This document shows, one piece after another, positions 22,333-36,557 of a stretch of 51,701 bases of DNA (position 1 is its first letter; every line of letters begins with the position of its first letter). The notes under the pieces are model-generated. The model was not told where the DNA came from, did no database searches, and was given only the letters and a program-made list of their open reading frames with translations. Made by a program: the position numbers and the translations under genes. The DNA lies in the NCBI GenBank assembly GCA_028822935.1, contig JAPKCM010000034.1:1-51701 (forward strand), in the 5' to 3' direction. Source of the stretch: Akkermansiaceae bacterium (lineage in GTDB: Bacteria; Verrucomicrobiota; Verrucomicrobiia; Verrucomicrobiales; Akkermansiaceae).

Positions 22333-22377
22333 GGAATGAAATGAGTCGGTGAATATCATGCACAAATCCGACATTCC
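22333..22377 (-). promoter_or_regulatory. Conserved 45-bp bipartite element, copy 2
   Basis: On the minus strand: GGAATGTCGGATTTGTG, CATG, an 18-nt spacer, CATTCC. It lies 71 nt upstream of the dehydratase ATG and 27 nt past the AraC stop. Only its right part is shared with the AraC duplication, so the CATTCC half is conserved independently. It probably controls the whole sugar-acid operon. Confidence 0.78.
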
Positions 22378-22403
22378 CGTGGATCAGCATGATTTCCCGG
22401 CCT

Positions 22404-23273
22404 TTAAGAATCCACGAACCCGCGCACCTGCCTGATCCGACGATAGCTCGCAGGCGGGAGGCCGAAGCGGCGTTTGAAACTTCGGGAAAAATGAAAGGGA
22501 CAATTGAAGCCACAGTTCTCGGCAATTCCTTCGACCGTTCCTTCGGGATAAGCCAGCATCCTGGCGGCCCGTTGAAGGCGGGCCTCGATCAACCAGGCTT
22601 TCGGGGTCGTCCCGGTGTTCGTTTTAAACAAGCGACTAAAATAATCCGCATTAAGCCCGCAAGCCTTCGCCCACGAAGTGATGGAAACATCCTCACTCAG
22701 TCGCTTCTGAATCCATTCCTGGGCCGCGAGCACATGGTGAACGGTCTTGGGATTCCCCCCGGCGACTCCGGGATCAGGAGCGAGTGCCTCTTGAAGTTCC
22801 GCCAGCCAATCAAACAAGGCCCCCGTAACATGTAAATTGCGCCAGCGGCCCCCGGATTTCAAAGCATCGAGAACCCTCTTAAAACGTCGCTCATAGCTTT
22901 TGCAATCCTGCAATCCGTAATGCCGTTCATAGCCGTGTCGTAAAAGGACATTCGAGCCATCGTCCCGACTCAACGAAAGGCAAGCCGAAAGGGAAGTCTG
23001 CGGCTTGGCCGAATCCTGGGTTGCTGAGAAGACATCTCCACCACGCCACACCACCATTTCTCCCGGCGTCAGCGGCTGAGGAACTCCATTGATCTCCACC
23101 GTGCAAGACCCTTTCTTGAGATAAAAAAAGCAGATCAAATCAGAGCCCAGACGCGACGGCTCAATCGACCAATCCGGGTCGCCGCCCCACTGCCCGAACC
23201 ACTTCACCCGCAATCCGAGGGAAGTCTCGAACTGCGGTTTCCAGTCGTGGTGATAGGGTAAATCGTCGGGCAT
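22404..23273 (-). CDS. AraC-family transcriptional regulator, copy A
   Basis: A 289-aa regulator. The ATG at 23273 (MPDDLPYHHDWKP) matches copy B; 17 extra codons upstream are not shared. Residues about 20-110 look like a cupin-type ligand domain (FFYLKKGSCTVEINGVPQ, GEMVVWRGGD). The C-terminal 100 residues hold the two helix-turn-helix units (ITSWAKACGLNADYFSRLF and VEGIAENCGFNCPFHFSRSF), ending KRRFGLPPASYRR. Such proteins usually activate sugar genes when ligand is bound. A near-palindrome lies 13 nt upstream, suggesting autoregulation. The sugar-acid operon follows directly, so that is its likely target. Confidence 0.94.
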   Translation of the reverse strand: MPDDLPYHHDWKPQFETSLGLRVKWFGQWGGDPDWSIEPSRLGSDLICFFYLKKGSCTVEINGVPQPLTPGEMVVWRGGDVFSATQDSAKPQTSLSACLSLSRDDGSNVLLRHGYERHYGLQDCKSYERRFKRVLDALKSGGRWRNLHVTGALFDWLAELQEALAPDPGVAGGNPKTVHHVLAAQEWIQKRLSEDVSITSWAKACGLNADYFSRLFKTNTGTTPKAWLIEARLQRAARMLAYPEGTVEGIAENCGFNCPFHFSRSFKRRFGLPPASYRRIRQVRGFVDS

Positions 23274-23285
23274 AAAAAAATAATC

Positions 23286-23304
23286 GAACGTGTTTAAACA
23301 GTTC
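23286..23304 (-). promoter_or_regulatory. Near-palindrome upstream of AraC copy A
   Basis: GAACGTGTTTAAACAGTTC, a palindrome with one base missing compared with the perfect 20-bp version at 33409-33428. It sits 13 nt before the AraC start and could be an operator. The single-base loss may change regulation of this copy. Confidence 0.5.
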
Positions 23305-23354
23305 AAACTCCAACTGCGAAGCAATTATCACAAGGAGGGCCTGAAAAGATACAA

Positions 23355-23612
23355 TCAATTTCCCAAGCTGCCCGAGGCAAGCGAGGTCTTGATCAAAGCC
23401 AAGCCTCCCTTGGTGGCGGCATACTTTTCTGAGACGGCTTCAAGTTTCGGAGCCTGCGTGAGATGAGTGTGTTGATGGCAGCCGACACAACCCATCCGGG
23501 AATAAAGCTCGCGCGCCTTCTTCCGCCCGGACTCGCTCAGAGGCGCACCGGCCAGTAATGATGTCGCCAGTGCCGTCGTGCCGAGGCTGAATAGCTTGCC
23601 CCTGGTTGGCAT
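23355..23612 (-). pseudogene. Truncated cytochrome c gene (N-terminus only)
   Basis: 85 residues homologous to the start of the 29484-31073 protein: a leader, then ARELYSRMGCVGCHQHTH with the heme motif CVGCH, and KTSLASGSLGN. The homologue continues with WGKQEMPPQ, but here a TGA follows immediately at the edge of the AraC-carrying duplication, so the remaining 440 residues and the distal methionine ligand region are lost. The start ATG at 23612 shares its A with the TGA of the upstream chimeric gene. Probably a remnant; a short secreted heme peptide cannot be excluded. Confidence 0.8.
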
Positions 23613-24238
23613 CACAAATCATACTGCGGGACCTTCATCCATCCCCCCCCTTTCAGAGCCGACTGATGGGCCACGACGCCGGCCAAGGTCATGTTCAGGG
23701 CATCGCCGACACCAACAATGGGCTTCTTATCGAGCAGAATCGACTCGATAAAGTTATTTGTCAGTTGTCCGTGTGAACCGCCATGACCACCGCCACTCAC
23801 TCCGGGTGGCAAGGGCGGACGATTGCCATTGATTTTATTATTGTGTGGTTTCTCTCCATAGACCCGGCCTTGTTCACCGTGGGCGTTTTTCATGTCCCAA
23901 CTACCGCCCATGCGCGAGATCCCGCCTTCGCTGGTTTTAAACATCGCGATCTCGTTACCGAAGGGATTCTTGTGCTGGTTGTCGCCACCGTTGTATTCGG
24001 GATATAGGCCGGGCGTTCCCACTGCCGAGACTTCGGTGAAACCTCCACCCGTGATGGAGACATAGTAAGCGGTCGCGTGAGTGGGATACCACATCGGAGG
24101 AACAGCCTTGCGCCCGCCTTTTTCGAAGTCCTTGACCAACTTCACCTCCGGCGTCCCAAAACTGACCGCCTCTATGGCAGAGAGTGACGCCGGCGATAGC
24201 AACAGGAAGGAAAGAACCGTTACGAATCGTTTAATCAT
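23612..24238 (-). CDS. Chimeric exported protein: foreign leader fused to Gfo/Idh C-terminal half
   Basis: A 208-aa open frame. Residues 1-22 are a Sec signal peptide (MIKRFVTVLSFLLLSPASLSA), then about 20 residues (FGTPEVKLVKDFEKGG) unlike any Gfo/Idh here and vaguely like the start of SMP-30-type proteins. From PPMWYPTHATAYYVSITGG to GGGWMKVPQYDL it matches the C-terminal half of the Tat Gfo/Idh at 31092-32339. The NAD-binding Rossmann half and the Tat signal are gone, so it cannot be a normal oxidoreductase. A GTG at 24253 is an alternative start. It lies 19 nt after the GH43-like gene. Either a decayed gene joined in frame or a new exported binding protein. Confidence 0.75.
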   Translation of the reverse strand: MIKRFVTVLSFLLLSPASLSAIEAVSFGTPEVKLVKDFEKGGRKAVPPMWYPTHATAYYVSITGGGFTEVSAVGTPGLYPEYNGGDNQHKNPFGNEIAMFKTSEGGISRMGGSWDMKNAHGEQGRVYGEKPHNNKINGNRPPLPPGVSGGGHGGSHGQLTNNFIESILLDKKPIVGVGDALNMTLAGVVAHQSALKGGGWMKVPQYDL

Positions 24239-24257
24239 GGATGGAATCTTCACCTTC

Positions 24258-25289
24258 TTAATTCAATTTAGCAGGCTTTAATGGATTCCACTTTTCACGG
24301 TATTCCATCTTCACCTTCCCGGTTTTTGGATCGAGGAGCAGCGGAAGAAAGAGATAGCGCGACTTGTTAATGTCGTTCTTATCTGGAGTCCACCACTGGT
24401 CGCAGAGGGCCATCACGGTGTCGGACTCTTTAAGATAAATGAGATCGGTGACCTGTGAGCTCCAGGTTTTCTTCTCGCTGATGTGCCCCTGATTTTTCCA
24501 GGCTCCCAAAGGCGCATCGGCCGTTGCGCACTTGGTTTCGGTCCCGGACCAGCCATGCACGCCCGAGGCGACCGCGATGTATTTGCCCTTGTGCTTGATC
24601 ATGGCCGGCGCTTCGCAGCCTTTCTCAAAAACAACGGCTCCGTCCTTGTTACTGGTCAGGTAGTCGTCGCTCAGGCTGTCGATCCGGATCGCGTAGGTTG
24701 CGCTTTGACCTTCAACCCCGTGTCCCCCGTGGTCGCAGTAGATCACGTATCCCTTGCCGTCATCGTCCTGGAAAACGTTCATGTCCGAGGCAAAGCCATT
24801 GGGCGTTCCCATTTCGCGCGGGCCCAATGGAGTGAATGGACCTTCGGGATGATCCGCGACCGCCACCATGAGAAAGGACGCGGGGACGTGCAGATACCAG
24901 CGATACCACATCACGTACTTCTTGGTCTTCTCGTTGTAGATGACGTGCGATCGGCCGGTGGATCCCAGTTTCCCCCAGCCCTTTTTCGGCCGGGGAAGAC
25001 ACACGCCTTTGTATTCCCAATTCTTCAGGTCGGTGGAGCGGTAGACCAGCACCCCGTTCCAGACCGGTCCGACCGCGATGCCGAACTTGCCCTTCGGGTT
25101 GTTGGCATAGCTGCTGCCGTACCAGTAGAAAACCCCGTTGAACCGTGAAAGTTCACCTTCATGCGCGACGATGGGATTGCCCTCGGTGTCTTTCCAATCT
25201 GTGCCGTTGGTAATGGCCGGAGAATCTGCGAAAGCGAGCTGTGTCAGGCAAACCAACGACAGGGAGAGGGACAAGAGTTTCTGAGGCAT
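24258..25289 (-). CDS. Exported GH43-like five-bladed propeller glycosidase
   Basis: A 343-aa protein with a signal peptide (MPQKLLSLSLSLVCLTQLAFA). I chose the ATG at 25289 over 25295, because GGGAG lies 6 nt before it, one of the few clear ribosome-binding sites here. GNPIVAHEGELSRFNGVFYWYG and VYRSTDLKNWEYKG are typical of the GH43/GH117-type propeller. Acidic residues in FASDMNVFQDDDG and FEKGCEAPAMIKHKGKY fit the expected catalytic positions. It probably removes a sugar from a polysaccharide side chain outside the cytoplasm. The 45-bp element is 40 nt upstream, making it the first gene of a short unit with the chimeric gene and the cytochrome remnant. Confidence 0.82.
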   Translation of the reverse strand: MPQKLLSLSLSLVCLTQLAFADSPAITNGTDWKDTEGNPIVAHEGELSRFNGVFYWYGSSYANNPKGKFGIAVGPVWNGVLVYRSTDLKNWEYKGVCLPRPKKGWGKLGSTGRSHVIYNEKTKKYVMWYRWYLHVPASFLMVAVADHPEGPFTPLGPREMGTPNGFASDMNVFQDDDGKGYVIYCDHGGHGVEGQSATYAIRIDSLSDDYLTSNKDGAVVFEKGCEAPAMIKHKGKYIAVASGVHGWSGTETKCATADAPLGAWKNQGHISEKKTWSSQVTDLIYLKESDTVMALCDQWWTPDKNDINKSRYLFLPLLLDPKTGKVKMEYREKWNPLKPAKLN

Positions 25290-25328
25290 CTGCATCTCCC
25301 GAAATCCTAAAAGATCCGTGCGTCCGAG

Positions 25329-25373
25329 GCAATGAAGCGAAGCTGCCTTTTTGATGCATAAATCCGACTTTCC
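25329..25373 (-). promoter_or_regulatory. Conserved 45-bp bipartite element, copy 3
   Basis: On the minus strand: GGAAAGTCGGATTTATG, CATC, an 18-nt spacer, CATTGC (one mismatch to CATTCC). It lies 40 nt upstream of the GH43-like ATG, the closest of all copies. The flanking sequence is unrelated to the other copies. Confidence 0.72.
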
Positions 25374-25472: not shown

Positions 25473-26603
25473 CTATGTCCCAGAGCCCGGGCTTGTTCCG
25501 CGCAGCGGGGCTACCCCGGGATCCGGATGCCCGGTATGGAAAATCTTCGAGACCTCAACCACCCGCCCCGTGCTGATTGACTCCCAGGCCGCGGCACCGG
25601 CCGCCACCGAGTTGGCGCCATCAAGGACGCCCGGGACCGGGTCTTTGTCTTCATCAAGGCATTCTTGAAAGTGCCGCATGTAGCGGATCACGGTGGCGCC
25701 GTGACCATAGGCACTCAGATCGGTCTCCGGCTCAAAGTCGGTGACCACCGGCCGGTGATCCGGATCGCTGTCGCGCACCACCCGCAGCTCGCCGGGTTCG
25801 TTGTCGGTGAAGTCCGCCTGCAACGATCCTTTGTCGCCAAAGATCCGGAATTGCATCATCGGGATGGGCGGATGAACAACGCCATAGAGTCCGGACACCC
25901 GACCAATCACCCCCGACTCGAAGCGGACGTTGATGAAGAAGTTGTCCTCGATGGGGTAGCCCTCGGTCATGCCGCCTTTGTTGGCGAAGGCGTGCACCGA
26001 GACGATATCTCCCGCAAAGGCGCGGATAATGTCGAGACTGTGGACACAGCCGCCATACATGAAATCCTGAGGTATCTCGAGACGCCACGGGGTGAACTCA
26101 TAAACCGGACGCATGTCGTGGATGTAGTGGCTCTCGACTGCGATCAAGCGCCCCAGATCCCCATCATCATAATGCTTCTTGGCCACCAGGAACTGGCGGT
26201 CGAAGCGCATGGTTTGCCCGACGAGGAACTTGCGCCCCTTCTTTCGAGCCAGGCGAGCCAGCTCCTGCGCATCCTCGAATGAGGTCACCATGGGCTTGGT
26301 GCAAACGACGTGCCTGCCGTTCTCGAGAGCGGCCCGGCAGTGCTCGGCGTGCAGGTGGTCCGGCGAAAAGACGGCAACCACATCGACATCGTTCCGTGTG
26401 ACGATCTCCCGGTAGTCGACCGAGCCGAAGGGGATTTTGTAACGATCCAAGACCGCATCGACCGTGGCCTGCGAACCGGCGCATACCGCCGTGATCTCGT
26501 AGCGGAGATCCGGTTCGTCTTTGAGGAGTGCAAGAGTTGACGCCATGTTGTCGACCCCCATGCCGATGACGCCGAGTCGGATTGTTTCAGTCTTATTGCT
26601 CAT
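25473..26603 (-). CDS. Cytoplasmic Gfo/Idh/MocA oxidoreductase
   Basis: A 376-aa oxidoreductase with no export signal. The Rossmann motif is RLGVIGMGVDNMAS; the conserved active-site segment is NGRHVVCTKPMVTSFEDA with the usual lysine-proline. The C-terminal half includes FMYGGCVHSLDIIRAF, where the histidine-aspartate pair is the expected catalytic site. The last 20 residues are glycine- and proline-rich and probably not conserved. It starts 1 nt after the stop of the 960-aa fusion gene, so it is the fourth gene of the operon beginning with the Tat Gfo/Idh. It could reduce or oxidise the keto-sugar released by the preceding enzymes. Confidence 0.91.
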   Translation of the reverse strand: MSNKTETIRLGVIGMGVDNMASTLALLKDEPDLRYEITAVCAGSQATVDAVLDRYKIPFGSVDYREIVTRNDVDVVAVFSPDHLHAEHCRAALENGRHVVCTKPMVTSFEDAQELARLARKKGRKFLVGQTMRFDRQFLVAKKHYDDGDLGRLIAVESHYIHDMRPVYEFTPWRLEIPQDFMYGGCVHSLDIIRAFAGDIVSVHAFANKGGMTEGYPIEDNFFINVRFESGVIGRVSGLYGVVHPPIPMMQFRIFGDKGSLQADFTDNEPGELRVVRDSDPDHRPVVTDFEPETDLSAYGHGATVIRYMRHFQECLDEDKDPVPGVLDGANSVAAGAAAWESISTGRVVEVSKIFHTGHPDPGVAPLRGTSPGSGT

Positions 26604-26604
26604 G

Positions 26605-29487
26605 TCAAAGTGGCTGCACCCAGATGTTTCGGAAGCGCACCCGGCCTGCGGCGCTGTGGTTCTCGAGCACGATCGGGCCGGGCGTCGCGCCTTCCGGCTC
26701 GATCAGTGTCGGGCAGATGCTCGGGAGTTCGACGTCGTCGTGAACTTTTTTGCCGTTCAGCAACACGGTCATGCGCGCCTTCTCGGTCTTCTTGCCCGCC
26801 TTGTCGAAGCGGGCGTTGCGGAAGGTGATGTCGAGCGTCTGCCAGGTGTCGGCCGGTTTGCTGGCGTCGATGTCAGGGGGCTTCAAGCCGTAGATCGCGC
26901 CGAGCCGATACTTCCCGTCCTTTTCACCGCGGCCGCGGATCTCGTTGCAGTAACGGAAATGGGTCCAGATCCCGCTGTTCATCCCCTCTTCGTCGGGTAA
27001 CCAAACTTCAGCGTGAAACCGAAAATCATTGAAGCGTTGCTTGGTCACAAGGTGACCCGGGTCCGTGACCTCAAGCGCGCCGTCGATAATTTTGTAGTGG
27101 CAAGGAGCGGCGTTCTTAACTTCCTCGTTAGTCGGCATGCGCATCCCGCTGTGCTGCATCCAGGCCGAGGTGTCGGTGCCGTCAAAGAGAATAATGGCGT
27201 CCTCGGGAACTTGAGGACTCAACGATTTCCACTTATTCATCGACGCCGTCAGGTGCTTGCGGGCATCGCCGCCGATGCTATAGCAGAAAAGTCCCACCGG
27301 CCCGCAGTAATCGATCTCGTCGAGGATGGAGATGATCTGGCTCTGATCGAAATCCCCCTGATCGAGCGGCAGGATCTGCGCTTTGTCTTTCGAACTTCCG
27401 TGGATGTTGATGATCTTCAGCCACGGTCGCGCCTGCGTCAGGGCGGCCTTCAAAGTTCGGTCCCGATCGACGAGCATCCAGTGATAGAGGTTGAAGATCA
27501 CACCGACCTGCTTCGGGCGCTTCACCTTCGCCGCCACGCGGACCGCTTCCTCGACGGTCTGCAAATAATCGCCGGCGTGCGGGTAAATCGCGATCTCAAC
27601 CCCGTGCGGTTCGGCAAGATCGGCGAGCTGGTTGAGCACCGCGACGGCCTTGGCATCGAGGTCGGCCTTGCGGTTGCCTGACAGGACAACTCCGAGGATG
27701 GTCTTGTGCCTGGCGAGAGCGGGCATGATCTCTTTGACCTTGGCCAAATCAATCGCCTGTTTCTGTTCGAGGCGAATTTGTCCGGTGACGAGGTTCAGGC
27801 GCAGGCCTTCTTCTTCGAGGGAGGCAACCCGCTCAGGAACGGTGACGCCTTTGGGATGACCGAAGTCCGGGAAGCCGAGTTCCTGAGCGAGTTCGCCGGC
27901 ACCATCATATCCCAATTCACGATAGAGCTTGGCCTGCTCCGCCAGTGAGTGTTTGGCGCTGTCGCTGATGGATGGGACATAGGGGAAAAAGGATCGGCTC
28001 ACGCTCTTTTTCGCAAGCGGAGAGAGACCGGGTGACTTGGAGTCGAAGTTCGTTTCCGACAATTCGTTCAAGGTGTAGTAGGCCATGTGATGGCGCAGTT
28101 TCTTGCCTGCTTGATTGACGAGGCCCGACAACTTGAACTCGTAGATTTTGCGAGGAGTGAGGCCGTCGATCTTGAGATGAACGCTTCGATGGTCATCGGC
28201 GATCTTTACCGATCGAATTGCGACCGGCTTGAGATCTGTCTTGGGCGAACCGTAGGCACCTGAGTATTTGTAGTGATAGTTGACGAGTTTGTAGGCCGCG
28301 GGATTGGCGCAGACTGCCGGGTCGACCGGTTCCGTGAACTGCAGGACGAAGCCGTCGTTGACGAGCTGGATGGAATGGATCTCGAAGGGCATCTTTCCGT
28401 TGTAGACGATCTTCTGCAGTCCGTGGCCCGGCTTGCCGCGTGCCCAATCACCTTCGCCAACCCTGCCGACAATCAACTCGCCTTCGGGCGAAAACTGCAG
28501 GCGGCAAATCCCCCTCTTTAGCGTCCCTCCTTTGATGAAGGGAAAGCAGGCTCCCTGATACTGGCCCTTGATTTTCTCCAAGGCGATGCGGATGAGATGA
28601 GGCTGCACCACGTCACCAATGAACATCTGCCCGGAGAAAGGCCCGAACTTCCCGCCGGTCGTGTCACAGATCGGTGAGCCCGGGGAGTTGGCCAACTCGC
28701 CGTGAGGAAAATGCACCGCCGGCATTTTTCGCAGTTGATCAAGTTCGGCCAAGGGTGCCTTCGTCGGATCTTTACGATGAGCAAAGGTTTCATCCCAACG
28801 CAGAGCTTTGGCATTTCCATGAAAGGCCCCTTTGGTGAGATGATGGAGCATCGAGGTCGGAACCCAATCGCCCTGATTGTCGGCGGCAAACAGTTCTCCG
28901 TCCAGATTCATACCGATGCCATTGGCGGTCCGAAGTCCCGACGACCAGGGCTTAAACCCGCCATCCGGAGTCACCTTGAAGGACCACATTCGAAAGGGTT
29001 CACTGGAGAAACCGCTGGAACTGGCCGGGGTGCCGTCGGCTTTGATTAATCCGGTGCAGGACAAAACGCCGCACAGGTTTCCTTCGCGATCACGGACGAG
29101 CCCGTAGGTATACTGGTGGAAACTTTGAACCGACGAGAAGCTGTCATTGAAGGTGTTGTATTGATCAGCGACGCCATCGTTGTCGCTATCGACCAACTCG
29201 GTGATCTCGGAGCGTTGTGACACGAAGACCTGGCCCTTTTTCTCTCCCACACAGATCCCCATCGGTTCATGCAGACCCAATGCAAAGTGTTTCCACTCAC
29301 CATCTTTGATTGTCCAAACATCACCGTGGCGAGTGCAAACGAAAAGGGTCCCGTCCGGCGCATAATCGAGCCCGGAAACCTCCAGGACGACATTGGCTGG
29401 AATAGGAACTTTTTCGACGGAATACGATTCGTCGGCCATCAATTGCAGCGTAGCGCAGAGGGCGAGCAGCGTAGTAAGTATTCTCAT
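26605..29487 (-). CDS. Exported three-part protein: propeller, TIM barrel and DUF1080
   Basis: A 960-aa protein with a signal peptide (MRILTTLLALCATLQLMA). Residues about 20-360 form a propeller of the membrane-bound dehydrogenase type (LDYAPDGTLFVCTRHGDVW, GLRTANGIGMNLDGELFAADNQGDW). About 365-470 is a strand-rich linker. About 510-740 is a sugar-phosphate isomerase/AP-endonuclease-2-like barrel (VEIAIYPHAGDYL, VGVIFNLYHWML, INIHGSSKD). About 755-960 is DUF1080 (ILFDGTDTSAWMQH, MNSGIWTHFRYCNEIRGRG). DUF1080 members act on 3-keto-glycosides, so with the oxidoreductases beside it this protein probably processes an oxidised glycoside. It overlaps the cytochrome gene by 4 bp. Domain limits are approximate. 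Confidence 0.87.
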   Translation of the reverse strand: MRILTTLLALCATLQLMADESYSVEKVPIPANVVLEVSGLDYAPDGTLFVCTRHGDVWTIKDGEWKHFALGLHEPMGICVGEKKGQVFVSQRSEITELVDSDNDGVADQYNTFNDSFSSVQSFHQYTYGLVRDREGNLCGVLSCTGLIKADGTPASSSGFSSEPFRMWSFKVTPDGGFKPWSSGLRTANGIGMNLDGELFAADNQGDWVPTSMLHHLTKGAFHGNAKALRWDETFAHRKDPTKAPLAELDQLRKMPAVHFPHGELANSPGSPICDTTGGKFGPFSGQMFIGDVVQPHLIRIALEKIKGQYQGACFPFIKGGTLKRGICRLQFSPEGELIVGRVGEGDWARGKPGHGLQKIVYNGKMPFEIHSIQLVNDGFVLQFTEPVDPAVCANPAAYKLVNYHYKYSGAYGSPKTDLKPVAIRSVKIADDHRSVHLKIDGLTPRKIYEFKLSGLVNQAGKKLRHHMAYYTLNELSETNFDSKSPGLSPLAKKSVSRSFFPYVPSISDSAKHSLAEQAKLYRELGYDGAGELAQELGFPDFGHPKGVTVPERVASLEEEGLRLNLVTGQIRLEQKQAIDLAKVKEIMPALARHKTILGVVLSGNRKADLDAKAVAVLNQLADLAEPHGVEIAIYPHAGDYLQTVEEAVRVAAKVKRPKQVGVIFNLYHWMLVDRDRTLKAALTQARPWLKIINIHGSSKDKAQILPLDQGDFDQSQIISILDEIDYCGPVGLFCYSIGGDARKHLTASMNKWKSLSPQVPEDAIILFDGTDTSAWMQHSGMRMPTNEEVKNAAPCHYKIIDGALEVTDPGHLVTKQRFNDFRFHAEVWLPDEEGMNSGIWTHFRYCNEIRGRGEKDGKYRLGAIYGLKPPDIDASKPADTWQTLDITFRNARFDKAGKKTEKARMTVLLNGKKVHDDVELPSICPTLIEPEGATPGPIVLENHSAAGRVRFRNIWVQPL

Positions 29488-31073
29488 GGGCTTACTCCGG
29501 TTGAGATTGAAAACCTGGTCCGTTTATCCATGCTTACTTTCCAACGACCCTCGGTCCAATCAGCATCTTTAGACTGATGATGTTCGTCGGCGAGGAAAGA
29601 TACGGACTTGGTATTTTGCGGAAGATCAAAGTGATGATGGATCATTTTTTGATCCTCGCTGATGGTGATGCGCTGGCGCACGAGAGTGCCGTCGACGAGA
29701 TACTTAAAAACGGGGTAGCTCTCGATGAGCTCGTATCCTTTGAAGCGAACCTGCGGTTTCTTTTTTGAATCACCAAGGCGCAAGGGAAAGCCCTCAGGTG
29801 CGACATGGAATTTCTCTCCCACCAGTTTCGTATACCAGCCGCCCCAACTATGCCACGATTTAGTGACGTCAATGAATCCACCACGCCACGCATACAGCAA
29901 GCGGCAGTTCTCTGCATCAAATCCGAAAGACATATCTCCGGGGAGTCCCACTGCAATCGCCCGCGAGGGAGCCTCGGGCAGATAAGTTCGGTAGACCACC
30001 GGCTGATCCAAAACCCGGATGATATTACCCTTGCGTTGCTCGATGAACAAATCGGCGCCGGAGGGAGCGGGCGGCGCACTCCCAATGGCACCTTCCACTG
30101 GAATTCCGATGGTGAAATCGTCGACCGTCGCACTCATCGCAGCACTGCCACCAAAAGTAATTCCAACATAAGACATCGCATTCCGCATCTTCACGTCATA
30201 GCGGTCGGCCGTTGTGTAGTGGAGAACGCCATTGGCAAGGAACTCATAGTTGTCCCCTTTTCGCACGATCTCAAACTTCACCGGCACGGAGGGATCAACA
30301 GGCTCGCTTGAGTACAACTCGTAGCCTCCGCTTCCGACGTCCTTGCGCACCCGGTAGACCCAGCCCGGCCCGTTACTCTCATGACGCAACACCCATTCAT
30401 ACCGGAGCTGGGAATCGAGCAGTTGCGGTTGGGGCACGGTGGAAATCATCAGCCCAACCTGCCCCCATGGCTTCCCCGCTGCCTCAATTCCCTTAACAGT
30501 GAGCGTTACGCGATCGGCCGGTCCACGACCGAACCCCGTCCGATAAAACCCGGCGACCGCCGCACCGTTTCCTTTCTTCAAACGAAGGTCCTCCGCTTTC
30601 TTGTTCCATCCGATCGTCACGAGACGTGGGCCAAAGTACTCATACTGCGTCCACTGCCCAACATTGAAACCCGCCGTCCTGGCAAATTTCTCAAGTGTCC
30701 CGGTGCTCCCCGGAGGCTTCTCCCCGGACGCATGTAGGCCGAGCAACCAGCGTGCCAGCAAGTCCCGCTCACTTTCCTGCAAATGGGCCTGCGGCGGCAT
30801 TTCCTGCTTTCCCCATTTACCAAGACTGCCGGACACGAGGGACACCCTGATCACCTCGATCCCCCCGTCGATCGCCGCATACTTCTCCGACACCGTATCG
30901 AGGCCGGGGGCTTCGGTCAGATGCGGATATTGATGACACCCGACACAACCCCGGCTGGAGTAGAGTTCCCGCGCCTTTTTCAATTCCGGCTCACTGAGAG
31001 GCTTGCCGCTTACAGCAGGCTTAGCCAACATCAGCATGGCGAGACACAAGATTCTGCGATTAAATGGCATCAT
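29484..31073 (-). CDS. Exported cytochrome c protein with C-terminal beta-rich domains
   Basis: A 529-aa exported protein. After the leader comes a mono-heme c domain: ARELYSSRGCVGCHQYPH gives the heme motif CVGCH, and WGKQEMPPQAHL supplies the likely distal methionine. Residues about 150-290 look like a LamG/DUF1080-type jelly roll (LRYEWVLRHESNGPGW, NYEFLANGVLHYTT). The last 220 residues (GDMSFGFDAENCRLLYAWRGG) resemble a conserved PVC domain that I cannot name with certainty. It starts 18 nt after the Tat Gfo/Idh gene, so it is the natural electron acceptor or partner of that enzyme. A truncated copy is at 23355-23612. Confidence 0.85.
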   Translation of the reverse strand: MMPFNRRILCLAMLMLAKPAVSGKPLSEPELKKARELYSSRGCVGCHQYPHLTEAPGLDTVSEKYAAIDGGIEVIRVSLVSGSLGKWGKQEMPPQAHLQESERDLLARWLLGLHASGEKPPGSTGTLEKFARTAGFNVGQWTQYEYFGPRLVTIGWNKKAEDLRLKKGNGAAVAGFYRTGFGRGPADRVTLTVKGIEAAGKPWGQVGLMISTVPQPQLLDSQLRYEWVLRHESNGPGWVYRVRKDVGSGGYELYSSEPVDPSVPVKFEIVRKGDNYEFLANGVLHYTTADRYDVKMRNAMSYVGITFGGSAAMSATVDDFTIGIPVEGAIGSAPPAPSGADLFIEQRKGNIIRVLDQPVVYRTYLPEAPSRAIAVGLPGDMSFGFDAENCRLLYAWRGGFIDVTKSWHSWGGWYTKLVGEKFHVAPEGFPLRLGDSKKKPQVRFKGYELIESYPVFKYLVDGTLVRQRITISEDQKMIHHHFDLPQNTKSVSFLADEHHQSKDADWTEGRWKVSMDKRTRFSISTGVSP

Positions 31074-31091
31074 CCCTCGCTACCTTTGCGA

Positions 31092-32339
31092 TCATAGATC
31101 ATACTGCGGAATCTTCATCCATTCGCCACCTTTGAGTGCCGACTTGTGAGCAATCACTCCGCCCAAGGTCATGTTCAAGGCATCGCCGACATGCACGATG
31201 GGCTGCTTGTCGAGCAGAATGGATTCGATGAAATTATTCGTCAATTGTCCGTGAGATCCGCCATGACCGCCGCCTCCGACGCTGGGTGGCAGGGGTGGGC
31301 GATTGCCATTGATTTTATTGTTGTGTGGTTTTTGTCCGTAGACCCGACCCTGTTCCCCGTGGGCATTCTTCATGTCCCAACTCCCGCCGATCCGCGAGAT
31401 ACCACCTTCGCTTGTCTTAAACATCGCGATCTCCGTGCCAAAGGGATTCTTATGCTGATTATCGCCCCCATTGTATTCCGGGTAAAGACCGGGCGTCCCT
31501 ACCGCAGAGACTTCCGTGAAACGACCTCCCGTGATCGAGACATAATAAGCTGCTGCGTGAGTGGGATACCACATCGGCGGGAGCGCATGGCGCCAGCCGT
31601 TGGCATCAATCTTGCCGTTCTTGGGATTGTAGCCGGGAATCCCATTCGCCCCGAAGTCATGCCAATACTCCCCCTCGGAGTAGATGATCTTACCCAAGGC
31701 GCCAGCCTGGCATTGCATTCTCTTGGCGTAGAGGTCCGCATGGAACGCGGAGGTCTCGTTCATCTGGTACTTCATCCCGCTTTTCTTGACGGCATTGAAC
31801 AATTCTTCGGCCTGCCCCTCGGCCTCAAAACCAAAGACGGCGGGAACGGCTGAAACGACATGTTTGCCATGATTGAGCGCCATGATTGCCAGACGCGCAT
31901 GACTAGGGGCATCGGTCGCGATAAAGATCGCTTCGATGCTCTTGTCCTTGATCATCTCTTCACAGGACGGATAGGTCTTCTTCGCGCCCACCGCTCTGGC
32001 CAGTCCGGCACAGCGTCCGGGATCGAGATCGGTGGCCGCCACCACTTCGACGTTGGGGTGGGATTGATAGAAAAATGCCGCCCCGAATTTGCAGAGGCCG
32101 TAACCTGCGATTCCCACCTTGATCTTGCGATCCGAAACCGGTTGCCAGCCCTTGGCCGCATTCGGGTCTTTCTTGGTTTTTTCAAATCCCGGAATGACTT
32201 TGCCATTAGCATCCTTCGGGGCGTCATCGGCCGCAGCCATACCGGTCATTCCCAAGAGGGCCCCGGCGCCACCCATTCCATGCAGGAATCCCCGTCGGGA
32301 CAAACCGGACTGCTCGTGATTTTGTTCTTCGTTGTTCAT
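31092..32339 (-). CDS. Tat-exported Gfo/Idh/MocA oxidoreductase (copy 2)
   Basis: A 415-aa enzyme very close to the 5262-6506 protein. It starts MNNEEQNHEQSGLSRRGFLHGMGG with the twin-arginine signal. The Rossmann motif is KVGIAGYGLCKFGAAFF, and the active-site region includes NHGKHVVSAVPAVFG and MWYPTHAAAYYVSITGG. Tat export with folded cofactor, and a cytochrome c gene 18 nt downstream, suggest oxidation of a glycoside in the periplasm with electrons leaving via the cytochrome. The 45-bp element is 120 nt upstream. Its N-terminal region and leader are repeated at 33525-33901. Confidence 0.92.
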   Translation of the reverse strand: MNNEEQNHEQSGLSRRGFLHGMGGAGALLGMTGMAAADDAPKDANGKVIPGFEKTKKDPNAAKGWQPVSDRKIKVGIAGYGLCKFGAAFFYQSHPNVEVVAATDLDPGRCAGLARAVGAKKTYPSCEEMIKDKSIEAIFIATDAPSHARLAIMALNHGKHVVSAVPAVFGFEAEGQAEELFNAVKKSGMKYQMNETSAFHADLYAKRMQCQAGALGKIIYSEGEYWHDFGANGIPGYNPKNGKIDANGWRHALPPMWYPTHAAAYYVSITGGRFTEVSAVGTPGLYPEYNGGDNQHKNPFGTEIAMFKTSEGGISRIGGSWDMKNAHGEQGRVYGQKPHNNKINGNRPPLPPSVGGGGHGGSHGQLTNNFIESILLDKQPIVHVGDALNMTLGGVIAHKSALKGGEWMKIPQYDL

Positions 32340-32505
32340 AATTCTTGCTCGCTTGATTCGATTTTCTGCTTTTAGTGAATACTGCCTTTTTCGGTTGGTT
32401 CTTCCTCAATCTTCTGCGGGGAAGTTCTGAGCGACTCTAGCGCGGGAGATTGGCCGAGGGAATGGATTGTCAGCGTAAGATTCATGCACAAATCCGACTT
32501 TCCCG
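32129..32505. repeat. 377-bp direct repeat, copy 1 (Gfo/Idh N-terminus and leader)
   Basis: Matches 33525-33901 with constant offset 1396 and few differences. It covers the Gfo/Idh codons for the Tat signal, the leader and the 45-bp element. The AraC copy B gene lies between the two repeats. Confidence 0.88.
32459..32503 (-). promoter_or_regulatory. Conserved 45-bp bipartite element, copy 4
   Basis: On the minus strand: GGAAAGTCGGATTTGTG, CATG, an 18-nt spacer, CATTCC. It lies 120 nt upstream of the Gfo/Idh copy 2 start and 27 nt past the AraC copy B stop. Identical to copy 1 over all 45 positions. Confidence 0.78.
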
Positions 32506-32529
32506 TGGATCAGCATGATTTGCCGGCCT

Positions 32530-33399
32530 TTAAGAATCCACAAACCCGCGCACCTGCCTGATCCGACGATAACTCGCAGGCGGGAGGCCGAAGCGGCGTT
32601 TGAAACTTCGGGAAAAATGAAAGGGACAATTGAAGCCACAGTTCTCGGCAATTCCTTCGACCGTTCCTTCGGGATAAGCCAGCATCCTGGCGGCCCGTTG
32701 AAGGCGGGCCTCGATCAACCAGGCTTTCGGGGTCGTCCCGGTGTTCGTTTTAAACAAGCGACTAAAATAATCCGCATTAAGCCCGCAAGCCTTCGCCCAC
32801 GAAGTGATGGAAACATCCTCACTCAGTCGCTTCTGAATCCATTCCTGGGCCGCGAGCACATGGTGAACGGTCTTGGGATTCCCCCCGGCGACTCCGGGAT
32901 CAGGAGCGAGTGCCTCTTGAAGTTCCGCCAGCCAATCAAACAAGGCCCCCGTAACATGTAAATTGCGCCAGCGGCCCCCGGATTTCAAAGCATCGAGAAC
33001 CCTCTTAAAACGTCGCTCATAGCTTTTGCAATCCTGCAATCCGTAATGCCGTTCATAGCCGTGTCGTAAAAGGACATTCGAGCCATCGTCCCGACTCAAC
33101 GAAAGGCAAGCCGAAAGGGAAGTCTGCGGCTTGGCCGAATCCTGGGTTGCTGAGAAGACATCTCCACCACGCCACACCACCATTTCTCCCGGAATCAACT
33201 GCTGGGGCACCCCATTAATCTCCACCGTGCAAGACCCTTTCTTGAGATAAAAAAAGCAGATCAAATCAGACCCAAGACGCGACGGTTCAATCGACCAATC
33301 CGGGTCCCCGCCCCATTGCCCGAACCACTTCACCCGCAGCCCGAGGGAGGTCTCAAACTGCGGTTTCCAGTCGTGGTGATAGGGTAAATCGTCGGGCAT
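32530..33399 (-). CDS. AraC-family transcriptional regulator, copy B
   Basis: A 289-aa protein identical to copy A except at two positions in the ligand domain (GVPQQLIPGE here, GVPQPLTPGE there). The two helix-turn-helix units are unchanged, so both copies should bind the same DNA; the changed loop could alter ligand response, or be neutral. The gene lies directly upstream of the Gfo/Idh-cytochrome operon. The perfect 20-bp palindrome 10 nt before its ATG suggests autoregulation. It is the best candidate regulator of the 45-bp elements. Confidence 0.94.
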   Translation of the reverse strand: MPDDLPYHHDWKPQFETSLGLRVKWFGQWGGDPDWSIEPSRLGSDLICFFYLKKGSCTVEINGVPQQLIPGEMVVWRGGDVFSATQDSAKPQTSLSACLSLSRDDGSNVLLRHGYERHYGLQDCKSYERRFKRVLDALKSGGRWRNLHVTGALFDWLAELQEALAPDPGVAGGNPKTVHHVLAAQEWIQKRLSEDVSITSWAKACGLNADYFSRLFKTNTGTTPKAWLIEARLQRAARMLAYPEGTVEGIAENCGFNCPFHFSRSFKRRFGLPPASYRRIRQVRGFVDS

Positions 33400-33408
33400 A
33401 AAAAAATC

Positions 33409-33428
33409 GAACGTGTTTAAACACGTTC
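33409..33428 (-). promoter_or_regulatory. Perfect 20-bp palindrome upstream of AraC copy B
   Basis: GAACGTGTTT followed by its exact reverse complement, 10 nt before the AraC start codon. A bound protein here would block ribosome access or transcription of the gene. It has no resemblance to the 45-bp element, so a second regulator or a different binding mode is implied. Confidence 0.6.
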
Positions 33429-33537
33429 AAACCCCAACGGCGAAGCAATTATCACAAGGAGGGCCTGAAAAGAAAAATCCGCCCCTCAACCCTGAAGTCT
33501 CCACACAACGGACAGATCATCGAAGATTCGAAACAGG

Positions 33538-33735
33538 CTACCAGCCCTTGGCGGCATTCGGGTCTTTCTTGGTTTTTTCAAATCCCGGAATGACTTTGCC
33601 ATCAGCATCCTCCGGGGCGTCATCGGCCGCAGCCATACCGGTCATTCCCAAGAGGGCCCCGGCGCCACCCATTCCATGCAGGAATCCCCGTCGGGACAAA
33701 CCGGACTGCTCGTGATTTTGTTCTTCGTTGTTCAT
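33538..33735 (-). pseudogene. Gfo/Idh N-terminal fragment
   Basis: 65 codons nearly identical to the start of the 31092-32339 gene, including SRRGFLHGMGGAGALLG. A TAG replaces the CAA codon that follows AAKGW in the intact gene, and homology ends about 10 bp later. The fragment retains leader and 45-bp element, so it may be transcribed, but it encodes only the Tat signal and a short tail. Confidence 0.88.
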
Positions 33736-33854
33736 AATTCTTGCTCGCTTGATTCGATTTTCTGCTTTTAGTGAATACTGCCTTTTTCGGTTGGTTCTTC
33801 CTCAATCTTCTGCGGGGAAGTTCTGAGCGACTCTAGCGCGGGTGATTGCCCGAG

Positions 33855-33899
33855 GGAATGGATTGTCGGCGTCTAACTCATGCACAAATCCGACTTTCC
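33855..33899 (-). promoter_or_regulatory. Conserved 45-bp bipartite element, copy 5
   Basis: On the minus strand: GGAAAGTCGGATTTGTG, CATG, an 18-nt spacer, CATTCC. It lies 120 nt upstream of the Gfo/Idh fragment. The spacer differs from copy 4 at several positions while both conserved parts are unchanged, which supports selection on those parts. Confidence 0.75.
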
Positions 33900-33997
33900 C
33901 GCAAGAGATGTGGAAACAATGAAACAGCAGCTTCCCGATGAAAGCCGCCGTCTCAGTTGGATTTCCTGGGAAAATCATCGCTCCCCAAGGGAGGCCG

Positions 33998-36292
33998 TTA
34001 CAACTCGATCCGGAAGAAAAGGCGTTCCTCATTCTGGAATTCGAAAGGCAGCGGAAAGGTTACCGTGAGGTGGTCGACGTCATCAGGATTTTCATCGCGC
34101 ATCGCAGTGATATTGTCATCGATATCTGTTTCCCAATCAATCATGTCAGTCGAGATCTTGGCGATGTAAGTCGCAGTCCCAATCTTGCGCCAGGTTAGGG
34201 TCACCGTGCCGGCATCTTTGTCGTAGTCGATCCCGGTGATGCTAAGACCTCCTCCCGAGACTTCCCGTAGCACGACGGCAGCGAGAACTGCGTTGCCGTC
34301 TTCGATCACATCCGGGTTGTCGTCCAGCGCCACCCGGAAGGAACTGTCGGTGGCCGTGAAGGTATAGGTATACACCACCCCAAAGTCATCCTCGGCTTGG
34401 TTTGCGCCATTCGTTTCCAGTCCTTGGGCGAAGTCGTCGAGGACCAGAGTCAAGGGCTCAGCCGCAGTCCCCACCGAGACGTCGAAATTGCGGTCCGGTA
34501 ATCCCTGAAAAGGGAAGAAGCTTTCTTGAAAGACCAGCTGAAGCTGATACTCCTTGCCGGGCACGACGTCCAAGTCGAACGCCCAGTTCGAGTTGTACCA
34601 AACGGTATTCACAATGCTTTCCAAGGCGTCATCGTCAGCAGAGGAACCGTAGTCGGCACCATTGACACCACCCGGATTTGCGGTCGCATAATCGAATTCC
34701 AAGGTCTCCGCAGGGGTGGTGATGCCGACAGGTGGGTCGAACACGCTCGCAGCGGTGAACTCAACCCCTTGAACGGTCTGAGTTGGGCCTGGGCCCAGGT
34801 TGAAGGCGTAGACGATGTTGCCGCTCAGGTCGAGCCCCTCGCCAGCATCGCCGCCGGTGAACGGAGTAACTGAGGTTGGCACGATGTCCACCGTGGTGAA
34901 ACTCCATGTTCCGGAGCCGCTGATGCCCGCGAAGCTGTTGTCGGCGAGATCCTGAAAAGCGCCGGCCTCGATCTCGACATACAGGCCGGTCAGGGCAGGG
35001 AGAATGACGTTAGGCACGATCACGATTTGCGCCCCGCTCACCGTCACGTTTCCGGTGCTCACGTCGATGGTGTCCACCACTGTGTTATCATCGGCCCGCC
35101 GTATCACGATGTTTCCGGCCGCCTTTTGAACCTCCTCGTCGAAGGTAAACTCGAGACCGGAATCCACCGGCACGTCGGTGGCGCCGTTGGCCGGATCGTC
35201 TACAGTGCCGATGGTCGGTGCCGTCACATCGGTCGCGGCAGTTATAAAGCTCCAGATTGCGGCATCGGTGATTCCCATGAAACTGTTCTCGGCAAGATCC
35301 TCGATGGCCTCGGGGTCGATCTCCACATAGTAACCGGTGGAACCCGCCAGGGTGCTGCTGGGGTTAATCGTGACGCTCGCGCCGTTCAAGAGAAGATTCG
35401 TTGAAGTCGTGACGTCGAATGCCTCCACCACCGCCCCACCCGCGCTTTCCTTGATGGTAATATTTCCGGTGCCGAAGGCGACTTGCTCATCGAAGGTCAC
35501 CACCAGATCCGAAAAAATCGGCACCTCGGTGGCCCCGTTTGTCGGATCCAGGGTCGCGATGTTCGGAGGGGTCGTGTCGTCATCCAATGCTTCCAGAGTC
35601 ACGGCAGCGAGAACGGCGTTTCCGTCACCTATTTCCAGCAGGTTGTCGTCCAGCGCCACCCGGAATGAACTGTCGGTGGCCGTGAAGGTGTAGGTGTAAA
35701 CAAGCCCGGAGTCATCTCCGGCCTCATTCGCGCCGTTCGTCTCCGCGCCGAGAACCAAATCGTCGATGGCTAGGCTCAGCGTATCAGGCGATGCGGTCTC
35801 CACCGAGACGTCAAAATTGCGATCCTCCGTAATCTGTAAGGGGAAGAAACTCTCCTGGAGAATGAGCTGGAGCTGGTACCGGGTGCCGGGCGTGACCGCC
35901 AGGTCGAAGGTCCAGTTCGTATTATACCAAACGGAATTCACCACGATCTCCAGAGCGTCATCGTCAGCAGAGGAACCGTAGTCGGCACCATTGACACCAC
36001 CCGGATTTGCGGTCGCATAATCGAATTCCAAGGTCTCCGCAGGGGTGGTGATGCCGACAGGTGGGTCGAACACGCTCGCAGCGGTGAACTCAACCCCTTG
36101 AACGGTCTGAGTTGGGCCTGGGCCCAGGTTGAAGGCGTAGATAATGTTTCCGCTCAGGTCGAGACCCTCGCCAGCGTCGCCTCCGGTGAACGGAGTGAGT
36201 GTGCCAAAATTGACGGTGGAAGCGAATGTACCTTGGGTGGACGCCAGCATCGCAGCTGCGGCGAGGGAATAGCTTGTCTTGGATAATCTCAT
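33998..36292 (-). CDS. Exported protein with two malectin-like and two Ig-like domains
   Basis: A 764-aa protein. The ATG at 36292 gives a signal peptide (MRLSKTSYSLAAAAMLAS); the longer frame from 36427 would cross the 45-bp element. Domain order: malectin-like (TPFTGGDAGEGLDLSGN, DRNFDVSVET) at about 30-235; two Big_5/SbsA-type Ig domains (PPNIATLDPTNGATEVP and PTIGTVDDPANGATDVP) at about 240-460; a second malectin-like domain to about 690; and a C-terminal module ending LFFRIEL. Malectin-like folds bind sugars, so a cell-surface or secreted glycan-binding role is likely. There is no catalytic motif and no PEP-CTERM tail. The first and last domains share a 187-bp identical stretch. Confidence 0.82.
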   Translation of the reverse strand: MRLSKTSYSLAAAAMLASTQGTFASTVNFGTLTPFTGGDAGEGLDLSGNIIYAFNLGPGPTQTVQGVEFTAASVFDPPVGITTPAETLEFDYATANPGGVNGADYGSSADDDALEIVVNSVWYNTNWTFDLAVTPGTRYQLQLILQESFFPLQITEDRNFDVSVETASPDTLSLAIDDLVLGAETNGANEAGDDSGLVYTYTFTATDSSFRVALDDNLLEIGDGNAVLAAVTLEALDDDTTPPNIATLDPTNGATEVPIFSDLVVTFDEQVAFGTGNITIKESAGGAVVEAFDVTTSTNLLLNGASVTINPSSTLAGSTGYYVEIDPEAIEDLAENSFMGITDAAIWSFITAATDVTAPTIGTVDDPANGATDVPVDSGLEFTFDEEVQKAAGNIVIRRADDNTVVDTIDVSTGNVTVSGAQIVIVPNVILPALTGLYVEIEAGAFQDLADNSFAGISGSGTWSFTTVDIVPTSVTPFTGGDAGEGLDLSGNIVYAFNLGPGPTQTVQGVEFTAASVFDPPVGITTPAETLEFDYATANPGGVNGADYGSSADDDALESIVNTVWYNSNWAFDLDVVPGKEYQLQLVFQESFFPFQGLPDRNFDVSVGTAAEPLTLVLDDFAQGLETNGANQAEDDFGVVYTYTFTATDSSFRVALDDNPDVIEDGNAVLAAVVLREVSGGGLSITGIDYDKDAGTVTLTWRKIGTATYIAKISTDMIDWETDIDDNITAMRDENPDDVDHLTVTFPLPFEFQNEERLFFRIEL
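34626..34812. repeat. 187-bp identical internal repeat, copy 1
   Basis: Identical base for base to 35955-36141 (offset 1329), within the second malectin-like domain. The flanks diverge at once, including at synonymous sites, which points to recent gene conversion between the two domains. Confidence 0.9.
35955..36141. repeat. 187-bp identical internal repeat, copy 2
   Basis: Partner of 34626-34812, within the first malectin-like domain of the same gene. Confidence 0.9.
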
Positions 36293-36394
36293 GGTCGTGG
36301 TTTGTTGATACGTCAGGTTTGATCGAGTAAAACCAATCGAGGGACACGGGTTCATACGATACGCTAAGAACGCTAGCGCTGGATTCCGTCGGAG

Positions 36395-36439
36395 GGAATG
36401 AATTGCCGGGCCGTTTTTTATGAACAAATCCGACTTTTA
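36395..36439 (-). promoter_or_regulatory. Conserved 45-bp bipartite element, copy 6
   Basis: On the minus strand: AAAAGTCGGATTTGTTC, ATA, an 18-nt spacer, CATTCC. It lies 103 nt upstream of the malectin-like/Ig protein start and downstream of the terminator at 36502-36538, so this gene has its own promoter here. Confidence 0.75.
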
Positions 36440-36501
36440 CGGCTGCTCCGGATCGGGAATTCCCTTGGGGTTGAAGTCGGTGAGCGGTGCTGGACCCTGA
36501 A

Positions 36502-36538
36502 TAAAAAGGCCCGGCCCGCGCATTGGCGGACCGGGCCT
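36502..36538 (-). terminator. Rho-independent terminator after the PEP-CTERM gene
   Basis: On the minus strand AGGCCCGG pairs with CCGGGCCT around an interrupted inner stem (CCGC with GCGG), followed by TTTTTAT. It starts 20 nt past the PEP-CTERM stop and separates that gene from the next. Confidence 0.8.
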
Positions 36539-36557
36539 GAAATTCATCAACCTGTCT

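Follow-up and report, generated by a model that had tools for sequence, protein, structure and literature searches.

A conserved four-gene operon in an Akkermansiaceae genome as a candidate for exported glycoside oxidation, in which the cytochrome appears to belong to a propeller–DUF6797 pair

The DNA analyzed here (the window) is contig C24 of an Akkermansiaceae bacterium (JAPKCM010000034.1; 51,701 bases), part of a 4.59-Mb genome in 156 contigs that is 96% complete. It contains four genes, Gfo1, Cyt1, Fus and Gfo2, which are open on the minus strand with gaps of 18, -4 and 1 nt (Table 1). These genes, their coordinates and their spacing agree in full with an initial annotation made from the sequence alone, and the domains are backed by Pfam. 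PF01408 was found in Gfo1 (52.7 bits; cut-off 24) and also in Gfo2, Cytochrom_C in Cyt1 (22.0 bits; cut-off 21.3), and PF06439, the 3-keto-disaccharide hydrolase family, in Fus (111.5 bits against a gathering cut-off of 26.8; 6.6e-32), one of 47 matches to this family in the genome. DUF6797 in Cyt1 scored below its cut-off (21.5 against 24.9 bits), the propeller of Fus was seen by Pfam as DUF7133 only, also below cut-off, and no flavin domain was detected by Pfam in the four proteins. Cyt1 has one CVGCH at residue 43 and a distal MPP (Met92), the CxxCH and Met expected of a class-I cytochrome c, and its N-terminal profile matches cytochromes c551/c552 (down to 5.8e-12). Judged by these features, the operon is probably an exported glycan-processing one, as annotated, with DUF1080 (PF06439) and TIM-barrel domains of the 3-keto-glycoside kind; the two domains would fit elimination and hydration of a 3-keto-glycoside. 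A PF06439-type domain is also listed in an endo-xanthanase/lichenase (PMC9007349).

The operon was compared across 192 genomes, our own included. Full-length Cyt1 orthologs were found in 2 of the 191 others: G026, which is of the same genus, and G045, from another genus in the same family. G026 repeats the order Gfo1-Cyt-Fus-Gfo2 exactly, with identities to the window of 92, 77, 86 and 93%, and G045 has the same order with PSD1/PSCyt2 and DUF1501 genes inserted before Gfo2 (64, 76, 84 and 93%); Gfo2 is 92.7% identical in both. G080 has Gfo1 followed by GH43, a cytochrome-DUF6797 gene and a propeller that lacks both TIM and DUF1080; its Cyt1 relative is a shorter form that is missing the middle domain. 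The four-gene operon is a real, conserved set, beyond chance. Close Gfo1 relatives (E up to 1e-60) occur in 29 of the 192 genomes in various contexts, adjoining a FAD/Fe-S oxidase in five (G008, G017, G025, G014 and G180), GH43 in G020, G091 and G080, and heme or propeller proteins in others. The initial annotation had staked its reading on the cytochrome and DUF1080 fusion staying with a Gfo/Idh gene in other genomes, and this linkage proved to be conserved: Gfo1, a heme-DUF6797 protein and a propeller occur together in 8 of the 32 rows of a quick Gfo1 tree, in which loci L124, L125 and L128, taken as G026:C331, G045:C236 and G080:C140, were counted once. The linkage needs four label changes on this tree, three of them forced by starred branches, a count by which gain and loss are not separable. 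The Gfo1 of G045 belongs to another lineage than the Gfo1 shared by the window and G026, and the presence of two lineages in one operon slot speaks for a genuine function of Gfo1 in this operon.

Using the Fus alignment, we scanned one genome per species and analyzed the best 80 of at least 539 loci, which by record title come from Verrucomicrobiota, Planctomycetota, Bacteroidota, Acidobacteria and Gammaproteobacteria. At 69 of the 80, a DUF6797 gene lies immediately next to the propeller in the same orientation, and at one it is fused to it; within 3 kb, or fused, it is present in 74. The four-base overlap seen in the window recurs in 30 of the 69 adjoining pairs. Other parts of the operon are found near the propeller at fewer loci: a strong Gfo1 match (>400 bits) within 6 kb at 6, any Gfo1-profile match at 9, DUF1080 within 6 kb at 8, and a TIM barrel fused to the propeller at 7, while a single Gfo/Idh profile gave same-strand matches within 6 kb at 11, five of them in the operon clade. 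The Cyt1 cytochrome is itself the N-terminus of a DUF6797 protein. The annotation had described the cytochrome as dedicated to the exported Gfo/Idh; given that DUF6797 adjoins the propeller in 69/80 loci and Gfo1 is near it in only 9/80, the cytochrome appears instead to belong to the propeller pair rather than simply to Gfo1.

Heme accompanies the pair in several forms: at the N-terminus of DUF6797, as two or five motifs, fused to the propeller, or as a small separate gene. A single N-terminal CxxCH on DUF6797 was found at 12 loci, with Gfo1 near in 6, absent in 5 and one locus cut by a contig end. Seven of the 12 match the class-I cytochrome of the window, and Gfo1 is adjacent or one gene away in six of these; the seventh, L132, begins at a contig end. 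The N-terminal heme was given up as a marker for the Gfo1 operon, because at five single-heme loci (L174, L191, L193, L196 and L203) Gfo1 is not matched within 6 kb. A general Gfo1-heme linkage was likewise rejected, since a same-strand CxxCH neighbor within 400 nt was found for 7/29 Gfo1 genes compared with 16/141 background genes taken from these loci (p = 0.07). We also discarded the idea that Gfo/Idh generally accompanies the pair: it was not in the 25 commonest families of 118 close neighbors (≤2) and was seen in 3/118 distant ones. The 118 close neighbors came from 152 after omission of 13 longer than 800 amino acids, 14 belonging to loci L124-L131 and a further 7 long proteins; the distant set was a random draw from 299 of 354. 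The literature we searched contained no mention of DUF6797, DUF7133 or "PVC-type heme-binding."

Some loci show further arrangements of the module. At L037 (G026:C34, 5876-8938), LamG, the Cyt1 middle domain and a DUF7133 propeller form one chain with a cis element (see below) at its start, a fusion which suggests that the Cyt1 middle domain belongs to the propeller module. Our genome has a paralogous operon, L204 (G000:C134:44000-62000), with a sulfatase-like gene, a DUF6797 protein with two CxxCH motifs, a 1223-aa propeller+TIM protein, and then a Gfo/Idh and a protein weakly matching IolE. A TIM barrel fused to the propeller also occurs in G086. Locus L155, titled as a Klebsiella pneumoniae metagenome-assembled genome, encodes a 1203-aa TIM/propeller protein of a kind found mostly in Verrucomicrobiota and Planctomycetota; its organism label may be wrong.

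The structure of the propeller was predicted from 57 sequences (predicted local distance difference test, 91.5). The highest VIA-align Z scores were 30.9 for 3a9g, 29.9 for 2ism, 29.4 for 7cgz, 29.0 for both 3das and 7cdy, and 28.5 for 2g8s; all six are pyrroloquinoline quinone (PQQ)-type or putative glucose/aldose dehydrogenases (289-301 residues aligned; root-mean-square deviation 2.7-3.5). Next among the matches listed was fungal AA12 (25.5), with other propellers at ≤24.8. A comparison by hhalign with 19 GSDH proteins of relatives gave 97.3%, and a sequence search of the PDB with the propeller profile returned mainly designed propellers, with PQQ enzymes at E-values of 0.45 and 0.76. Eleven polar residues, including H124, R186, D203, N204, Q205, R300 and R329, are invariant in 57/57 propellers; H124 lies near the GSDH His column, outside it. 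Fus has in common with the PQQ aldose sugar dehydrogenases (3a9g, 3das and 2g8s) the propeller fold and the Arg of the GSDH RN-P motif (57/57), and differs from them in its DUF6797 partner, present in most loci here, and in the residues of the PQQ site considered below. From the model, the propeller may be read as a GSDH-fold enzyme with a changed or unfamiliar cofactor site, and it seems likelier than Gfo1 to be the redox partner of the cytochrome.

Many Gfo/Idh members have an EKP lysine motif, in place of which Gfo1 has AVPA. An alignment of 26 Gfo1 proteins (A3) showed E195, Y225, H227, R250, Y258, H261 and H359-G-G to be kept in all 26, and G357 and G358 of a GGHGG-type loop in 25/26 and 24/26, respectively. 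This loop aligns with GHGG of the GH109 structure 2ixa. The sugar-binding residues of 2ixa we take to be E149, Y179, H181, R213, Y225 and H228; by printed chain index, E195, Y225 and H227 of Gfo1 align with the first three, while R250, Y258 and H261 are paired with Y225 and H228 solely by the order of motifs. Work of Teze in 2020 is said to place the catalytic acid-base His of GH109 in the GGHGG loop. The A3 profile matched GH109 structures 2ixa (9.1e-16) and 6t2b (1.6e-12), with which Gfo1 has the fold, the loop and the aligned E/Y/H residues in common, although identity in the structural alignments is 18-19%. A PDB search with Gfo1 residues 180-305, which include the YPTH motif, found neither GH109 nor anything else relevant. 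Scores against the NCBIfam family of BT_2158 glycoside 3-dehydrogenase (NF058561; cut-off 750) were 20.9 bits for Gfo1 and 39.7 for Gfo2. GH109 chemistry would make Gfo1 redox-neutral, with no need of an electron sink, and its redox cycle may be completed internally. The electron route from Gfo1 to the cytochrome envisaged in the initial annotation thus loses ground to the GH109-like features and to the lack, in Pfam searches of the four proteins, of a flavin protein that could pass hydride to a one-electron heme. In GH109, elimination is linked to a transient oxidation (PMC10628242).

The operon lies in a locus marked by a 17-nt element, AAGTCGGATTTRTNCAT. This element, the partial copies of the operon head, the pair of AraC genes and the paralog GfoP (Table 1) are features on which the initial annotation is silent. 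Allowing one mismatch, nine sites were found in the genome, eight of them in the window and all eight on the minus strand (reversed control, 0). Seven window sites are 59-145 nt upstream of assigned starts, and the eighth is upstream of a broken Gfo1 head. The element is also found upstream of Gfo1 in G045, G026 and G020. In G045 a like site precedes a partial GH43 match (aa 2-55, 60%), and in G026 a site (G026:C331:1592) precedes, on the same strand, what is probably the orthologous dehydratase cluster. Matches occurred in 15/97 genomes, our own included, several of them single one-mismatch sites that are possibly due to chance; the reversed control gave one match. We rejected the possibility that the element is a repeat scar because it recurs upstream of the same genes in other genomes. 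By sequence, it ties together the Gfo1 operon, AraC1 with the broken head, GH43, the dehydratase cluster, the GfoP-sulfatase unit and three genes encoding Big_5/malectin-like, PEP-CTERM and CotH/LTD proteins.

Table 1. Features of the window (positions in nt unless given as aa).
Feature	Position	Strand	Remarks
Gfo1	31092-32339	-	415 aa; SRRGFL Tat-like motif; PF01408 Gfo/Idh; GH109-type features
Cyt1	29484-31073	-	529 aa; signal-like N-terminus, class-I cytochrome c domain, middle domain, DUF6797
Fus	26605-29487	-	960 aa; signal-like N-terminus; propeller ~20-365 plus further beta region
Fus, other domains (Pfam)	aa 551-733; aa 764-957		AP_endonuc_2 TIM barrel; DUF1080/PF06439
Gfo2	25473-26603	-	376 aa; signal not seen by eye; TKP lysine motif; PF01408 + PF02894
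AraC1	32530-33399	-	HTH_18; probable regulator
AraC2	22404-23324	-	99.3% aa identity to AraC1
Cis element AAGTCGGATTTGTGCAT	32484-32500	-	145 nt before Gfo1 start
Cis element	33880-33896	-	Before Gfo1 N-terminal remnant and AraC1
Cis element	25354-25370	-	59 nt before GH43
Cis element, 1 mismatch	22358-22374	-	96 nt before dehydratase operon
Cis element	6646-6662	-	140 nt before likely start (6506) of Gfo1 paralog
Cis element	36420-36436	-	Before Big_5/malectin-like protein, likely start 36292
Cis element	37422-37438	-	Before PEP-CTERM protein
Cis element, 1 mismatch	41959-41975	-	Before CotH/LTD/LamG protein
GH43-family protein	24258-25295	-	PF04616; 77% identical to G080 GH43 between Gfo1 and cytochrome
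Remnant, C-terminal Gfo1 copy	23612-24253	-	90%
Remnant, N-terminal cytochrome part of Cyt1 relative	23355-23615	-	56%
Remnant, Gfo1 leader and N-terminus	33525-33901	-	96% nt; broken
GfoP, full Gfo1 paralog	5262-6704	-	83%
Sulfatase after GfoP	3489-5225		
Dehydratase cluster	17764-22262	-	Cis element in front; includes two short-chain dehydrogenase/reductase (SDR) genes
Galactonate-dehydratase-like enolase	21084-22262		In dehydratase cluster
DHDPS-family protein	20155-21264		In dehydratase cluster
FAH hydrolase	18526-19392		In dehydratase cluster
FAD-oxidase/4Fe-4S protein	9658-12591		Relatives 93-94% identical
Big_5/malectin-like protein	34269-37250		Internal repeats
YHYH domain fused to sulfatase	48140-51457		1105 aa

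Relatives of AraC1 lie directly upstream of Gfo1 in G091 (70%) and two genes upstream in G106 (74%). The two AraC copies with their flanks (22356-23356 and 32482-33479) are 97% identical at the DNA level over 1002 columns, their codons differ by 16 synonymous and 2 nonsynonymous changes, and before each copy stands a broken piece of the Gfo1/cytochrome genes, not the same one in the two cases. We read the pattern as the trace of duplications and deletions that took place repeatedly at this locus, with an assembly effect being possible. Within the dehydratase cluster, the enolase is above the galactonate dehydratase cut-off (336.6 against 311), and the FAH hydrolase is closest to 2,4-didehydro-3-deoxy-L-rhamnonate hydrolase (371.9, below the cut-off of 500). 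The window holds at least three sulfatases, which, together with the 6-deoxyhexonate-type genes, suggest a glycan of sulfated 6-deoxyhexose (fucose or rhamnose); the substrate may accordingly be a sulfated glycan containing one of these sugars. Verrucomicrobiota are described as consumers of sulfated deoxy-sugar polymers, and alternative fucose pathways are mentioned (PMC8857213). As for the remaining neighbors, the Big_5/malectin-like protein contains blocks that share 74-84% DNA identity among themselves and with the region of the next PEP-CTERM gene, and a YHYH domain is fused to a sulfatase. Relatives of the FAD-oxidase/4Fe-4S protein adjoin Gfo1 at L069, L072, L074, L076 and L077; this protein may serve in lactate oxidation from deoxy-sugar breakdown.

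The explanation that we tentatively prefer, as possible rather than probable, is that of an exported glycoside-oxidizing operon in an AraC-regulated locus, with the Fus propeller and Cyt1 acting as a respiratory oxidase and with Gfo1 as a GH109-like enzyme. The operon would be transcribed as one unit within a locus of ~36 kb that would serve a sulfated glycan and is probably under AraC control. Exported Gfo1 would remove terminal sugars in a GH109-like cycle, in which bound NAD+ would oxidize C3, elimination and the addition of water would follow, and re-reduction would close the cycle with no outside acceptor required. The GSDH-like propeller would oxidize a sugar or glycoside, with electrons passing to the Cyt1 cytochrome c and on to the respiratory chain, and elimination and hydration of the keto-glycoside would fall to the TIM barrel and DUF1080 domain of the same chain. 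Gfo2, our proposed 3-keto-sugar reductase, would reduce the free keto-sugar after its import. In favor of this explanation, heme occurs with the DUF6797-propeller pair where Gfo1 is absent, as five CxxCH motifs, as a fusion, as a separate gene, or as the one N-terminal CxxCH of the five loci named above. A wider proposal, which we consider rather unlikely as a whole, is that DUF6797 and the propeller constitute an unrecognized class of periplasmic sugar dehydrogenase that does not employ PQQ in the familiar manner, has its own cytochrome partners and spans at least five phyla, and that it is fused here with an eliminase barrel and DUF1080 so that one chain oxidizes, cleaves and hydrates while electrons go to respiration.

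Compared with known systems, what differs is the proposed oxidase, which would be a propeller partnered by a DUF6797-cytochrome protein and carried on one chain with the cleaving domains. The BT2156-BT2160 set of Bacteroides thetaiotaomicron, which we take to consist of Gfo/Idh, DUF1080, TIM and Gfo/Idh proteins, resembles the operon in composition; to our knowledge it has no cytochrome-propeller part, and Gfo1 and Gfo2 are far below the BT_2158/BT_2159 family cut-offs where matched at all. In Caulobacter LacABC we assume LacB to be a cytochrome c and LacA to be of the oxidoreductase type used for this comparison, and, unlike LacABC, none of the four operon proteins was seen to have a LacA-type oxidoreductase domain. 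LacABC and CCNA_01705 resemble the operon in placing periplasmic 3-oxidation beside a DUF1080 protein (PMC9007349), and functions have been described for BT2158 and BT2157 (PMC11300592, PMC9007349). For the GlycDH/AtOGE/AtHYD/Gfo set of Agrobacterium tumefaciens, C3 oxidation by a non-NAD dehydrogenase, elimination by a TIM protein, hydration by a sugar-phosphate-isomerase-like protein (preliminary in that report) and reduction of 3-keto-glucose by Gfo are established (PMC10628242); we propose the same steps here, but the oxidase of A. tumefaciens is a flavoprotein, whereas ours would be a propeller with a cytochrome partner, in one chain with TIM and DUF1080. The levoglucosan pathway of LgdA/B1/B2/C proceeds through oxidation, elimination, hydration and reduction in four steps, and its abstract, unlike the operon here, mentions neither cytochrome, propeller nor export (PMC7676230).

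A number of observations weigh against the preferred explanation. CxxCH was detected with the DUF6797-propeller pair in 24/80 loci. The PQQ glucose dehydrogenase of Acinetobacter calcoaceticus had a Z score of only 23.9, among unrelated propellers, and Fus gave no PF07995 (GSDH) match at E 0.001. In the RN-P motif the Asn, which together with the Arg is presumably the PQQ-contacting pair (R228/N229 in sGDH), is present in 0/57 propellers (replaced by Ser in 39, by Thr in 11 and by other residues in 7), and R186 was the only PQQ-contact residue placed by hhalign. PqqE, the one protein searched for in this respect, scored 63.7 bits in our genome, below the cut-off of 381, and 0/14 control genomes pass either; PQQ can be taken up from outside. 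Eliminase barrels of the AtOGE type have Mn ligands on strands 5-8 and a catalytic His; in the Fus TIM barrel, compared with IolI, the metal positions appear altered, with Y in place of E and N in place of D, and there is a His two positions after the Y. For Gfo1, the best A3 profile match was DgpA (5.1e-18), ahead of GH109, and its VIA fold scores are a tie between GH109 (Z of 30.7 and 30.6) and levoglucosan dehydrogenase (30.5). Finally, two Gfo1 lineages in the operon slot are compatible with direct coupling of Gfo1 to the cytochrome.

The alternative that survives best, though we regard it as unlikely, is a redox-neutral 3-keto pathway of the levoglucosan or BT2156-BT2160 type, in which one Gfo/Idh oxidizes, DUF1080 and TIM cleave and hydrate, the other Gfo/Idh reduces, and the cytochrome-propeller part serves another reaction or binding. 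The parts match those of LgdA/B1/B2/C (PMC7676230) and of the A. tumefaciens set (PMC10628242), and the strong conservation of Gfo2 in both relatives is consistent with such a cycle. However, Gfo1, unlike Gfo2, appears to be exported, in which case the two would have no common cofactor pool, and the propeller is fused to TIM and DUF1080 in three genomes, which makes it hard to call it unrelated.

Next, and also unlikely in our judgment, is the reading of the initial annotation, that Gfo1 is a glycoside 3-dehydrogenase with electrons going to Cyt1, after which the DUF1080/TIM fusion cleaves the 3-keto-glycoside. BT2158 is termed a periplasmic glycoside 3-dehydrogenase (PMC11300592), at most one gene separates Gfo1 from the DUF6797 protein at six of the seven c551-like loci, the seventh being cut, and the linkage requires four changes on the Gfo1 tree. 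On the other hand, the five single-heme DUF6797 loci are without Gfo1 within 6 kb, Gfo1 scores far below the BT_2158 family cut-off while keeping GH109 features, and heme neighbors of Gfo1 are not significantly above background. Moreover, a bound nicotinamide passes hydride, and Pfam detected no flavin domain to receive it in the four proteins.

It is quite unlikely that propeller, DUF6797 and cytochrome form an aldose 1-dehydrogenase which makes an aldonolactone for the nearby lactonase and aldonate dehydratase, the other Fus domains being accessory. The dehydratase cluster does have the cis element here, as does the cluster in G026; an enolase-superfamily gene is found on the same strand within 6 kb at 10/80 loci (all Bacteroidota by record title) and a DHDPS-like gene at 7/80, and MR_MLE_C was present in 8/118 close neighbors compared with ≤2/118 distant ones, among the 25 commonest families listed. 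Yet the SDR genes of the cluster could perform this step, the PQQ residues are changed, and the fusion to DUF1080 points to 3-keto chemistry. Least probable of all is a non-catalytic propeller pair (binding or scaffold) in an ordinary glycan-binding and hydrolytic set, for although many non-enzymatic propellers share the fold and no heme was detected with 56/80 pairs, of which some are truncated at the end of a contig, the eleven polar residues are invariant.

Gut and soil bacteria are known to cleave glycosides oxidatively, while the extracellular electron path is less clear, and the propeller, DUF6797 and cytochrome together are a candidate for such a path. With at least 539 relatives, a tested function of this module would annotate hundreds of proteins. 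It could also bear on the breakdown of sulfated deoxy-sugar polymers.

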